Shown: positions 15,505 to 18,969 of the stretch, one piece after another
Layout: each line of letters starts with the position of its first letter
Numbering within the stretch: position 1 is the first letter of the stretch
Position numbers and translations under genes: made by a program
Notes under the pieces: generated by a model
Told to the model about the DNA's origin: nothing
Database searches by the model: none
The model's input: the letters and a program-made list of their open reading frames with translations, nothing else
Source of the DNA: Alphaproteobacteria bacterium
Lineage (GTDB): Bacteria > Pseudomonadota > Alphaproteobacteria > Micavibrionales > Micavibrionaceae
DNA length: 53,219 bases
NCBI GenBank assembly: GCA_030750865.1
Contig: JASMHE010000005.1
Span: 1 to 53,219 of the forward strand
Reading direction: 5' to 3'

Positions 15505-16473
15505 ATGAGTGAGACAAAGCACACAAAAGTTTTGATTATCGGGTCCGGTCCTGCCGGATACACAGCTGCGATTTACGCCGCGCGCGCCAACCTGAATCCG
15601 ATTCAGGTTCTGGGCCTGCAGCCGGGCGGACAGCTGACGATTACAACCGAAGTTGAAAACTATCCGGGGTTTGCGGAGATCATTCAAGGCCCCTGGCTGA
15701 TGGACCAAATGAAGGCACAAGCCGAAAATGTCGGCACCGAAATGGTGTACGACATGATCAAAGAAGTTGATTTCAGCCAGCGCCCACTGAAAGCTGTAGC
15801 AGATTCCGGTGATGTCTATACGGCCGATTCCGTAATTATCTGCACAGGTGCAAAAGCCCGCTGGCTAGGTCTGGACTCCGAAGAAAAATTCAAAAACAGA
15901 GGCGTATCCGCATGCGCCACATGTGATGGCTTTTTCTATCGTGACAAAGACGTCATTGTTGTCGGTGGCGGCAACTCTGCGGTCGAAGAAGCCTTGTTCC
16001 TGACCAATTTCTGCCGCAAAGTCACGCTGGTGCATCGCCGCGATGAATTACGCGCCGAACGTATTATGCAGGACCGCCTGTTCAAGAATGAAAAAATCGA
16101 AGTCGTCTGGGATTCCGTGGTCGAAGAAGTACTCGGCGATGATAGCGGCGTTACAGGCGCGCGCATCAAAAATGTCAAAACGGATGAAACCAGCGATATC
16201 GATGCCGAAGGTTTCTTTGTCGCCATCGGTCACGACCCCGCAACATCGTTGTTCAAAGAACAGCTCGATATGGATGATGAGGGCTATATCCTTTCCGAAG
16301 CGGACTCGACCAAAACATCCGTACCGGGCGTTTTCGCCGCAGGCGATGTCACAGATAAAATCTATCGTCAGGCTGTCACGGCCGCCGGCATGGGATGTAT
16401 GGCCGCACTGGAAGCGGACAAATATGTCGCTGCACTGGAATCAGACGAAGAACAAAGCGAAGCAGCCGAATAA
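15505..16473 (+). CDS. trxB: Thioredoxin reductase
   Basis: The 322-residue FAD enzyme reduces thioredoxin with NADPH. The FAD-binding motif GSGPAGYTAAIYAARA is near residue 13. The NADPH-binding motif is VVGGGNSAVEEALFL. The redox pair is C137/C140 in ACATCDGFF. The C-terminal GVFAAGDVTDKIYRQ motif contacts FAD. Length is normal. An acceptable ribosome binding site (AAAAGAG) precedes the start. A LysR gene follows after only 34 bp and may be co-transcribed; this pair is common in alphaproteobacteria. Confidence 0.97.
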   Translation: MSETKHTKVLIIGSGPAGYTAAIYAARANLNPIQVLGLQPGGQLTITTEVENYPGFAEIIQGPWLMDQMKAQAENVGTEMVYDMIKEVDFSQRPLKAVADSGDVYTADSVIICTGAKARWLGLDSEEKFKNRGVSACATCDGFFYRDKDVIVVGGGNSAVEEALFLTNFCRKVTLVHRRDELRAERIMQDRLFKNEKIEVVWDSVVEEVLGDDSGVTGARIKNVKTDETSDIDAEGFFVAIGHDPATSLFKEQLDMDDEGYILSEADSTKTSVPGVFAAGDVTDKIYRQAVTAAGMGCMAALEADKYVAALESDEEQSEAAE

Positions 16474-16507: not shown

Positions 16508-17404
16508 ATAAATCTGGATTGGGACAAACTCAGAATATTTCATGCTGTCGCAGAAGCCGGCAGCTTTACCCATGCCGGCGACATCCTGAAACTCAGCCAG
16601 TCTGCTGTGTCACGCCAGATCAGTTCGCTGGAAGAAAGCCTCGGCGTTATTTTGTTCCACCGTCATGCACGCGGCCTGATTTTAACAGAGCAAGGTGATA
16701 TCCTTGAAAAAGCGGCCCGCGATATTTTCAGCCAGATGGCCTTAATCGAGAGCCAAATCTCCGATTCAAAACAGCGCCCCGAAGGCCCGCTGCGCATTAC
16801 AACCACATCATTCCTGGCTTCGACATGGATTACGCCGAACATGGCGCCGCTGGTCGAATCCTATCCCGACCTACAGCTTGTTTTGCTACTGGATAACCGT
16901 ATCTATAATCTGGGCATGCGCGAAGCTGATGCCGCGATCCGTCTTTATAAACCCGAACAACCGGACCTGATCCAGTTGAAACTGGCCGCTATGAACTTCC
17001 ATATTTATGGATCAAAAGCGTATCTGGACAAACACGGCAAGCCAAAGACCGTCGAAGAATTAAGAGAACACCGCCTGATCGCCTATCCGGAAGGTTTACC
17101 GACACCGTTTGCCGATCCGAACTGGCTGTTCCGTTTATCAGGGCAAGAACCTGCTGATAATTATAATATGATGATGATGAATTCGATGGCCGCAATTTAC
17201 CAATCCGTTCTCAGCGGTTCCGGCCTCGGCATGTTGCCCGATTATCTGATGGATGGCCGTGATGACATGGAGATTATATTGCCGGACATCACCCCGCCGT
17301 CAATCGACATGTATTTTGTCTATCCGGAAGAGCGACGCAATTCGCAAAGGATTCGAATCTTCCGTGATTTTCTGCAGGATTTGGTCGGAAAAACCGCTTT
17401 TTAA
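16508..17404 (+). CDS. LysR-family regulator with apparent ATA start codon
   Basis: The product is about 299 residues if read from ATA at 16508. The N-terminal winged HTH (LDWDKLRIFHAVAEAGSFTH, then LSQSAVSRQISSLEESLGV) is the well-conserved form found beside trxB in alphaproteobacteria. The C-terminal substrate-binding domain follows from about residue 95 (PLRITTTSFLASTWITPNMA). No ATG, GTG or TTG exists in frame between the upstream stop at 16490 and a GTG at 16607. Starting at that GTG would remove most of the HTH. A strong AGGAG (16496-16500) lies 7 bases before ATA, where the family has its Met. So initiation at ATA, or a mutated start, is implied. The effector is unknown. Confidence 0.88.
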   Translation: MNLDWDKLRIFHAVAEAGSFTHAGDILKLSQSAVSRQISSLEESLGVILFHRHARGLILTEQGDILEKAARDIFSQMALIESQISDSKQRPEGPLRITTTSFLASTWITPNMAPLVESYPDLQLVLLLDNRIYNLGMREADAAIRLYKPEQPDLIQLKLAAMNFHIYGSKAYLDKHGKPKTVEELREHRLIAYPEGLPTPFADPNWLFRLSGQEPADNYNMMMMNSMAAIYQSVLSGSGLGMLPDYLMDGRDDMEIILPDITPPSIDMYFVYPEERRNSQRIRIFRDFLQDLVGKTAF

Positions 17405-17558
17405 GAAAAAATTTCTCCCCGAACTTTGTTTAATCAAAAATAAAAGTTGTTTAAACACAAGGTTTTACAGCTATTTGCGCTGCTATGCGAAAAACGCATG
17501 CCTGATATGTAATATTTTTTGTGGCATTGCACAAGCAAATCATACTATAACCCCAATC

Positions 17559-17663
17559 AACAGCGCGACGCGTTGTTATTAGGATCTTCCCAAGATCCTA
17601 CGTCTCCCAGACGTAAAACCTCCCTGTTCAACTCGCCGGGTCGAAAGACCCGGTGTTTTTTTT
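17559..17663 (+). ncRNA. Putative small RNA with anti-Shine-Dalgarno motifs (cuckoo/alpha-r14-like)
   Basis: Four consecutive hairpins lie in the gap between the LysR and patatin genes. They are AACAGCGC-GAC-GCGTTGTT (17559-17577), TAGGATCTT-CCC-AAGATCCTA (17580-17600), ACGTCT-CCC-AGACGT (17600-17614) and a terminator stem (17634-17655) closed by GAAA and followed by eight T. Between the last two is a single-stranded ACCTCCC. The CUCCC/CCUCCC motifs in loop and linker are complementary to a Shine-Dalgarno, as in the cuckoo (alpha-r14) small RNAs of alphaproteobacteria. The 5' end is uncertain; a weak promoter-like TTGTGG-N18-TACTAT lies at 17519-17548. No reading frame of note is present. Confidence 0.7.
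17634..17663 (+). terminator. Rho-independent terminator of the small RNA
   Basis: A nine-pair stem (CGCCGGGTC / GACCCGGTG, one G-U) with a GAAA tetraloop is followed by TTTTTTTT. This is a textbook intrinsic terminator and ends the putative small RNA. Confidence 0.9.
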
Positions 17664-17754
17664 GCGCAATATACATTTTTATATCTAGCCGCTTCACAGG
17701 CGCGATCAAAAAATATAAAATGAAAATTAGCGTTATGACTTCGAAACGATATGT

Positions 17755-18969
17755 ATGATTTTTCCATTTAAACCAAAATCAGGGCGTAAGGATAAAAAGA
17801 CCTACATCGCACTCTATAATCAGGGTGGCGGTATGCGGGGACTTATTCCCGCGCATATCATGACGCATATTGAAACCCAGACAGGTCTGCGTATGGCCGA
17901 CATGGTTGATATCTTCGCAGGGCCGTCAACAGCGTCCATTCTGAACGCCGCACTTGTTCGCCCCAGCCGCCATCATAGAAACCGCCCGATGTTCCGGGCG
18001 CGCAATCTGGTCCGTTTCTATGAAAGTAACGGCCTGAAAATCTTCCCGCCGGATCGATTTCGTTCGTTCCGTGGCATCATTCATGACTTTAACAACCGCA
18101 CGCTTCGCCTCGGGCAGTTAAATGCCATCATGCGTCACGGTCATTACGACCCGAAAAACCTGAAATTCGCACTCAAGAAACTGCTCGGCAATACGTCATT
18201 GCAGGATACGCTCAGTTCCATTGTCATTCCGTCTTATAATATTGATCGTGACCAGCTGGCGATCGCGCGTGAAAATGACGAAGGCGATCAAAGCCCTGCC
18301 CCAACCAAAAACAATTTTATGGATCAGGGCGGTCACGCCATCTGGTTCAAAAATATCATCACAGAACACGGATTACTGCCGACGAAGAAGCCCATACCGG
18401 ATGTGCTGTTATATGATGCCGTCATGTCAAGCTGCGCCGCACCGACCTTCTTCCCGTGCTATCACATGACCATGCCGCGCGAGAACGGCGCGGGCCTGCA
18501 AAATTATGCCATGATTGACGGACAGATATTCGACAATGCCTGTATCAGTTACCTCGGCGCAATACGCCGTCATATCCCGAAAGATGCCGACCTGATTATG
18601 ATTGTCCTCGGCACGGGATACACAAATTACTCCATCAAAGGCGAAGATTGGAACCGCTACGGCTCGCTCGGGATTGTCGATCCTGTCAATGACTTCCCGC
18701 TGATCAACATCTTCTTCCACGCTTCGGAATCCGCCTTAATGGACAGTTTCGAAGAAGAAATCGGAGACAACCTCTTCCTGTTCAACAAATCAATGCGGGC
18801 CTTCACAGAAGCTCAGCAGGAAACACTGCCCAGCCAGCAAATTGATGATGCGAGCCCCGAAAATCTGAAAAAATTACAGCAATTTGCAGATGCCATTGTC
18901 TATGACAACAAGGCGCAGTTTGACATGATGTGCGACATCCTCGTCAAAAACCACAACGCCAATCAATAA
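17755..18969 (+). CDS. Patatin-like phospholipase family protein
   Basis: The 404-residue product has the patatin hydrolase layout. The oxyanion-hole glycines are GGGMRG (residues 24-29), the nucleophile elbow is GPSTA with S58, and the catalytic Asp is D255 in MIDGQIFDNA. The last Gly of the usual GxSxG is replaced by Ala. Family members cleave acyl esters of phospholipids or act as lipid acyl hydrolases; the substrate is unknown. There is no signal peptide or clear membrane segment, so it is probably cytoplasmic or membrane-associated. The start has no strong Shine-Dalgarno. It lies 92 bp after the small-RNA terminator. Confidence 0.87.
   Translation: MIFPFKPKSGRKDKKTYIALYNQGGGMRGLIPAHIMTHIETQTGLRMADMVDIFAGPSTASILNAALVRPSRHHRNRPMFRARNLVRFYESNGLKIFPPDRFRSFRGIIHDFNNRTLRLGQLNAIMRHGHYDPKNLKFALKKLLGNTSLQDTLSSIVIPSYNIDRDQLAIARENDEGDQSPAPTKNNFMDQGGHAIWFKNIITEHGLLPTKKPIPDVLLYDAVMSSCAAPTFFPCYHMTMPRENGAGLQNYAMIDGQIFDNACISYLGAIRRHIPKDADLIMIVLGTGYTNYSIKGEDWNRYGSLGIVDPVNDFPLINIFFHASESALMDSFEEEIGDNLFLFNKSMRAFTEAQQETLPSQQIDDASPENLKKLQQFADAIVYDNKAQFDMMCDILVKNHNANQ

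Follow-up and report, generated by a model that had tools for sequence, protein, structure and literature searches.

Positions 17557–17663 of the window (the whole stretch of DNA analysed, 53,219 nt long, a contig of a 2.19 Mb genome) probably encode a LysR-activated, Hfq-type, trans-acting anti-Shine-Dalgarno (anti-SD) RNA of the LsrB/VtlR locus that resembles AbcR, a reading to which a probability of about 0.75 is assigned. We infer transcription, LysR binding, Hfq binding, targets and repression as follows. The LysR protein encoded just upstream would bind the T-N11-A/GCAT-N3-TG-N3-T box at 17485–17508 and, once bound, would activate a sigma-70-type promoter of the RNA. The RNA would probably be held by Hfq (hfq is encoded in the same genome) and its two anti-SD seeds, CUCCCA in the loop of hairpin SL3 and CCUCCCUGUU in the linker, would pair with ribosome binding sites. 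Such pairing would repress the translation of many mRNAs, most likely from genes for uptake and metabolism, in the manner of AbcR1/2 in rhizobia. Sequence comparison established the core of the RNA, the linkage of this core to trxB–lysR, the box with its phasing and the locus common to AbcR and SorX-family RNAs. The genes follow in the order trxB, lysR (ending at 17404), a 350-nt gap and a patatin-like gene (17755–18969), and the elements of the locus are:

15505–16473, + strand, trxB, thioredoxin reductase; opens the conserved gene pair (TIGR01292, 423.8 bits vs a cut-off of 343.45)
16514–17404, + strand, lysR, LsrB/VtlR ortholog (HTH_1 and LysR_substrate; best match per class genome)
17485–17499, + strand, palindrome ATGCG-N5-CGCAT, ATGCGAAAAACGCAT, a LysR-type T-N11-A box (sequence match)
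17496–17508, + strand, GCATGCCTGATAT, exact fit to the LsrB consensus GCAT-N3-TG-N3-T, overlapping the palindrome
17545–17550, + strand, CTATAA, probable -10 region (inferred; TATA clusters 46–56 nt from GCAT in relatives)
17557–17663, + strand, small RNA of ~107 nt (5' end inferred, about 17557; 3' end from the terminator)
17559–17577, + strand, hairpin SL1 (MFE fold)
17582–17598, + strand, hairpin SL2 with a CCC triloop (MFE fold; sequence and loop variable among relatives)
17599–17615, + strand, hairpin SL3 with a CCC triloop within CUCCCA, anti-SD motif 1 (MFE fold)
17616–17633, + strand, unpaired linker AAACCUCCCUGUUCAACU, anti-SD motif 2 (MFE fold; invariant in 29 aligned family/order sequences)
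17634–17663, + strand, intrinsic terminator (stem 17634–17655 plus U8 17656–17663)

In the MFE fold of 17550–17663, four hairpins, the free ACCUCCCUGUU and the U8 terminator lay within 17559–17663, as the earlier note had described. The MFE was -41.7 kcal/mol in comparison with a mean of -21.7 in 200 dinucleotide shuffles (z = -6.65), none of which (0/200) was as stable, and the core recurs across the class, which indicates that the structure did not arise by chance. The note's reading as a small RNA with repeated anti-SD motifs beside the trxB–lysR pair is likewise supported. The start given for it, 17519, also takes in promoter sequence, the 5' end of the RNA being placed at about 17557. The ACCUCCCUGUU stretch is unpaired at 17618–17628, inside the linker, and the CUCCCA of SL3 consists of the same six letters as the M1 motif of Brucella AbcR. 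The terminator is probably shared with the trxB–lysR transcript.

A BLAST search with 17550–17670 gave matches in 38 of 58 genomes, that of the window included, and the 30 best of the 40 matches were taken as family/order loci. The extraction pattern required CCTCCCTGT, with none of the 30 loci lost to that requirement, and 29 of them were aligned (L009 was left out). The conserved part consists of hairpin 3 (ACGUCUCCCAGACGU) and GAARCCUCCCUGUU. In the 29 sequences the linker was invariant; among the stems, whose conservation in relatives had been brought up earlier, SL3 was nearly invariant, whereas SL1, SL2 and the terminator loop varied. Of the CCC loops pointed out in the window, that of SL2 is not conserved among relatives, whereas that of SL3 (CUCCCA) mostly is, and so is the CCUCCCUGU linker. 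In a few members (e.g., L030, L032, L036, L095 and L101) the CUCCCA loop was lost and the linker kept. RNAalifold applied to the 29 sequences yielded just SL3 and a portion of the terminator, with double-sided changes in 3 of 12 pairs, the MAFFT alignment leaving SL1 and SL2 unaligned. Single folds of 160 distinct cores, for which the upstream cut was set arbitrarily at 50 nt and the shuffle was approximate, contained SL3 in 139 cases, and the median z of 40 sampled was -3.9 (range -8.3 to 0.5). Motif 2 was fully unpaired in only 57 of these 160 MFE folds and at least partly paired in 103, which may reflect either regulated access or imprecision of the folds.

The 26-nt core pattern GTCTCCCAGACGTRAARCCTCCCTGT was found in at least 119 stretches of the genome collection. 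Carriers among the matches listed, with names taken from 80 of these stretches, were Azospirillum, Thalassospira, Kiloniella, Nisaea, Magnetovibrio, Acetobacteraceae, Reyranella and Defluviicoccus, as well as a Micavibrio, records named Caedibacter and Caedimonas, and others. The core of a genome of the same family (L028) was letter-identical over 68 nt to that of a record named Micavibrio sp. UBA7657 (L121), which makes a Micavibrio-like lineage probable for the window. A covariance model, R1, built from 43 cores matched 73 of 142 class genomes (about one per family), scoring at least 50 bits in 51, and these counts include the genome of the window and those of the training sequences. At E up to 0.0044, R1 matched 48 of 79 class LysR loci, 26 of which were in the training set and 22 were not. 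Against the main reading, R1 gave no match at this threshold in the other 31 loci, and an exact-motif search found both motifs absent within 460 nt in 35 of the 79.

The 5' end of lysR (16508–16525) reads CTGGATTGGGAC in the window and ATGGATTGGGAC or ATGGACTGGGAC in relatives; no ATG is present there in the window, so a start at CTG 16514, or alternatively at ATA 16508, is likely, the former being the probable one. The encoded protein shares 46.8% identity with the S. meliloti LysR located between trxB and ar15 and 46.2% with the R. leguminosarum protein named VtlR (NCBI). It matched 110 of 142 class genomes; in most of those listed a single match clearly outscored the others, and three genomes (G062, G087 and G197) had two near-equal matches each. 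The best matches from 79 genomes made up the class loci L036–L114, and 63 of these contained a TrxB-like match, some loci being cut by contig ends. In P. ferrooxidans, trxB was not beside the LysR gene, which speaks against the main reading.

LysR was encoded directly 5' of the RNA in 24 of the 30 family/order loci (that of the window included) and in 83 of 118 genome-collection loci (the 119 minus one failing the core pattern); 19 of the remaining 35 have less than 600 nt of upstream sequence. When the search was not selected on LysR, 39 of the 51 genomes with an R1 hit of at least 50 bits had the RNA 141–339 nt downstream of the LysR ortholog. In the other 12, two hits lay 2.8 and 4.9 kb downstream, four were in genomes without a strong LysR ortholog and the rest were elsewhere; some of these best hits were on other contigs, and a few could reflect assembly breaks. 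In L158 and L162, the records named Caedibacter and Caedimonas, the core was kept, lysR was not adjacent and no exact palindrome was seen. In L014, with no LysR match in 3 kb, the RNA followed trxB directly, without the exact palindrome.

In the plasmid collection, LysR was found in 25 records, 11 of which were fetched. All three Rhizobiaceae loci (S. meliloti, Shinella and R. leguminosarum) carried two ar15 (AbcR) genes just downstream of LysR, and all four Rhodobacterales loci (two Paracoccus, Octadecabacter and Pseudorhodobacter) carried a SorX-family RNA at this place. In 4 of the 11 loci (an Azospirillum chromid copy, Methylobacterium, Tistrella and Microvirga) LysR was present without any Rfam sRNA, a point against the main reading. 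The trxB–lysR neighbour, which the earlier note also pointed out, is a better clue than the cuckoo reading favoured there, as it marks the LsrB/VtlR locus, the home of AbcR (alpha-r15).

The LsrB/VtlR consensus GCAT-N3-TG-N3-T, with generic T-N11-A motifs, is placed in PMC8844928 at -61 to -49 of the S. meliloti promoter PabcR1. The box in the window lies at the same -61 to -49, a distance that depends on the start at 17557, which in turn assumes CTATAA to be the -10 region and transcription to begin 7 nt after it. Of the 158 distinct core loci, 105 have an exact ATGC-N7-GCAT in the 260 nt preceding SL3, whereas first-order Markov shuffles averaged 1.18 and 1 of 145 control segments taken downstream contained it; with one mismatch allowed, these numbers rose to 140 of 158 vs 20.5 and 13 of 145. 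The core loci yield the consensus YATGCR-N5-YGCATRGCTG...T; a large part of the LsrB consensus known from print is thus recovered from other lineages. The full 13-nt form as published was rarer, 10 of 30 and 21 of 118 loci carrying it exactly, vs 1 of 164 in the control. TATA lay 46–56 nt from GCAT in 31 of the 105 loci, vs 3 and 0 in two control windows, the 74 others having no TATA there. The palindrome was exact in S. meliloti and R. leguminosarum and had 0–1 mismatch in the four Rhodobacterales loci, as do about one in eight shuffled 260-nt segments. At 22 loci lysR was not adjacent; in 8 of them the palindrome still preceded the RNA, a hint that it is part of the promoter of the RNA, and in the remaining 14 it was not exact or absent, contrary to the main reading.

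The window and 35 related loci were searched with Rfam 15, and no sRNA family reached its gathering score at the locus (tRNA and SRP RNA were found elsewhere). Scanning of 17400–17760 (361 nt) at E up to 10 returned 8 matches of any family. Identity with the cuckoo (alpha-r14) RNAs, proposed earlier, had to be abandoned: no alpha-r14 match appeared even at E 10, the SL1 and terminator loops have no anti-SD motif and the SL2 loop is not conserved. In alpha-r14, described for Rhizobiaceae, Brucellaceae and Phyllobacteriaceae, the motif is present in all loops (PMC7143759). The repeated anti-SD motifs and small size of these RNAs (NfeR1) are alike, whereas their distribution differs (PMC7143759). 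The ar15 model (RF02345, gathering score 40 bits), which detects a pair of copies at each of L249, L251 and L252, also gave no match in 17400–17760 at E up to 10, and R1 in turn failed to find any ar15 gene at the same E limit; common descent with AbcR therefore rests on the locus and the box, not on RNA sequence. Whole-genome ar15 searches of the class (0/142 and 0/385) were uninformative, since 0 of 14 controls were matched and only some candidates were scored. The SorX model (RF02784) scored 29.7 bits (E 2.3e-5 in 361 nt), below its gathering score of 46.6, and R1 found SorX genes at 21.2–28.5 bits, so that the two models match each other. By these searches, the window RNA appears to form a family of its own without an Rfam 15 model at gathering score and would supply a missing Rfam family.

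Comparison with AbcR1/AbcR2 revealed the same trxB–lysR–sRNA place, the orthologous LysR, the palindrome with the box, the terminator and two anti-SD seeds, of which one is a CUCCCA within a loop and the other is unpaired. The AbcR RNAs are 121 and 114 nt long vs the 107 nt inferred here. In ar15, unlike the window RNA, there is a large loop on the 5' side and GUUCCCCUC precedes the middle hairpin, and its sequence and hairpin order are different; it is present in tandem copies in Rhizobiaceae, whereas there is one copy at the locus in the window. The AbcR M1 motif CUCCCA is present in SL3, whereas M2 (GUUCCC) is absent from 17557–17663, where CCUCCCUGUU is unpaired instead. SorX and the window RNA have in common CUCCCUGUU-NN-ACU before the terminator and the place just downstream of the LysR ortholog (4/4 Rhodobacterales loci); no CUCCCA was seen in the four Rhodobacterales loci looked at, which sets SorX apart.

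By analogy, the window RNA appears to work like AbcR. The AbcR family is characterised by Hfq binding and by repression of ABC-transporter mRNAs. AbcR1/2 bind Hfq, and mutation showed that their anti-SD seeds act on mRNA leaders (PMC8844928). VtlR directly activates abcR1 in A. tumefaciens (PMC7486931). For S. meliloti the reports conflict: LsrB is described as not involved in AbcR control in PMC7486931, whereas in PMC8844928 it binds the AbcR1 promoter and is essential for AbcR1. In the genome of the window, CAGGGAG-N4-10-ATG gave 15 matches (13 distinct sites) vs 5 for the reversed pattern, a mild excess. By eye, a HlyD-like and a PrkA-like protein could be recognised among the open frames there; the matches are too few for any claim. 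No 11-nt perfect target was found in this genome outside the two sRNAs, which speaks against the main reading. Autoregulation of lysR by the RNA was considered and set aside: at least 6 letters of AACAGGGAGG occurred within 25 nt before lysR in 21 of 191 cases vs 5 of 124 before trxB, a weak signal that is not general.

An RNA cut by RNase E from the 3' UTR of the trxB–lysR mRNA, as reported for SorX in R. sphaeroides, with the same trans function and no promoter of its own, is an unlikely alternative. The only terminator-like site after lysR is at the RNA end, with none separating lysR from the RNA, and a consensus promoter scan listed neither CTATAA nor any other sigma-70 site before the RNA and showed no clear -35, all of which goes against the main reading. 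In R. sphaeroides, SorX is reported to arise by processing of the 3' UTR of ompR-1 mRNA (PMC8625941; PMC9438474), and SorX-family RNAs occupy the same place in the four Rhodobacterales loci. Against processing as the sole origin stand the palindrome with the phased TATA upstream, the palindrome at 8 of 22 loci without an adjacent lysR, and the start site mapped for each S. meliloti AbcR transcript (PMC7143759). An own promoter and mRNA processing may coexist. That the element is a mere terminator or structured 3' end of the trxB–lysR operon, without any trans function, is very improbable. A terminator this strong probably also stops lysR transcription; however, the 18-nt linker is invariant in 29 sequences and the 26-nt pattern is widespread, whereas the terminator stems vary, and in 12 of 51 genomes the best hit was not directly downstream of a LysR ortholog (a few of these could be assembly breaks).

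Two further readings concern the motifs themselves. Motif 2 resembles the 16S anti-SD sequence, and the motifs could act on a protein or the ribosome (as a 16S anti-SD mimic or decoy), or as the partner of a sponge RNA, more than they act on mRNAs. A Caulobacter sponge RNA that binds alpha-r8 anti-SD motifs (PMC12559287) fits such a role. It is nevertheless considered improbable here, since mutation revealed that AbcR1/2, encoded at the corresponding position, target mRNAs through their anti-SD motifs (PMC8844928). Membership in the alpha-r8 (SuhB/MmgR/SisA) family, the least probable reading of all, would draw on a weak suhB match (RF00519, 21.4 bits), on the alpha-r8 core UUUCCUCCCU, which similarly follows a weak hairpin (PMC12559287), and on the CCUCCCU unpaired stretch after a hairpin and before the terminator. 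It was rejected as the match was below the gathering score of 41; moreover, the Rfam consensus hairpin has no CUCCCA and the neighbour gene is different, alpha-r8 mostly adjoining an FGase gene (PMC12559287).

Common descent of the window RNA, AbcR and SorX is likely, not proven, and the data suggest one old regulator-plus-RNA control unit behind the window RNA, AbcR and SorX-type RNAs. We lean slightly towards a history in which an LsrB-controlled anti-SD RNA arose early in Alphaproteobacteria, stayed about unchanged (ACGUCUCCCAGACGUGAAGCCUCCCUGUU) in Rhodospirillales-like lineages, in the Micavibrio-like family to which the window belongs and in others, and was reshaped into AbcR1/2 in Rhizobiaceae and SorX in Rhodobacterales. 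The circuit would then be far older than host association, and LsrB thiol redox sensing would be a late addition. For A. tumefaciens, LsrB is presented in PMC11975290 as a sensor of thiol redox state in which C144 and C273 are conserved. In contrast to LsrB, the window LysR has no cysteine and thus no redox cysteines. The C144 position was Cys in 6 of 79 class and 1 of 24 family/order orthologs and the C273 position in at most 1 of 79 and 0 of 24, these positions being set by an inferred numbering offset of 2 from S. meliloti. Orthologs without any Cys numbered 41 of 79 and 6 of 24, respectively, and many have cysteines elsewhere. Since the window LysR and almost every class ortholog checked lack the redox cysteines, the ancestral signal was probably not thiol oxidation. 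If the age of the circuit matches its wide distribution, its original signal was probably not sensed by the thiol pair. The cysteines credited with LsrB sensing would accordingly be non-ancestral, which reopens what the regulator senses.

In the literature examined, AbcR (studied in rhizobia, Agrobacterium and Brucella) and SorX (in Rhodobacter) are treated apart, and no paper naming both AbcR1 and SorX was found. The search, with most subscription journals outside its scope, returned no paper on the window RNA outside Rhizobiales and Rhodobacterales; in the accessible part of an Azospirillum sRNA paper (PMC7685610), trxB does not occur and LysR is mentioned once, as a target class. The novelty of the window RNA in print is not proven. 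With AbcR, SorX and a widespread unmodelled RNA behind one LysR ortholog, the origin of these networks becomes testable, and a single box, a single regulator and a single short core of the RNA are open to probing in free-living species.

Several loci showed further variation. Downstream of lysR in L041 and L045, CCTCCCTGT occurred twice, 41 nt apart, as an internal repeat of the anti-SD motif. In L068 and L070, several CUCCC-rich stretches replaced the usual core downstream of lysR in an arrangement that recalls alpha-r14, and L068 nevertheless matched R1 at 36.4 bits. The patatin-like phospholipase gene (17755–18969) adjoining the RNA showed a weak likeness to CBASS cGAMP-activated phospholipase (91.9 bits vs a cut-off of 200). 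A second RNA-like place with a CCUCCCUGUUCAACUCGCCGG module was present in the same genome at L002:1479–1541 (G000:C8:628241–628303, minus strand); it comprised the linker and terminator without SL3, looked SorX-like (30.8 bits with the SorX model, below gathering) and scored 34.3 bits with R1.
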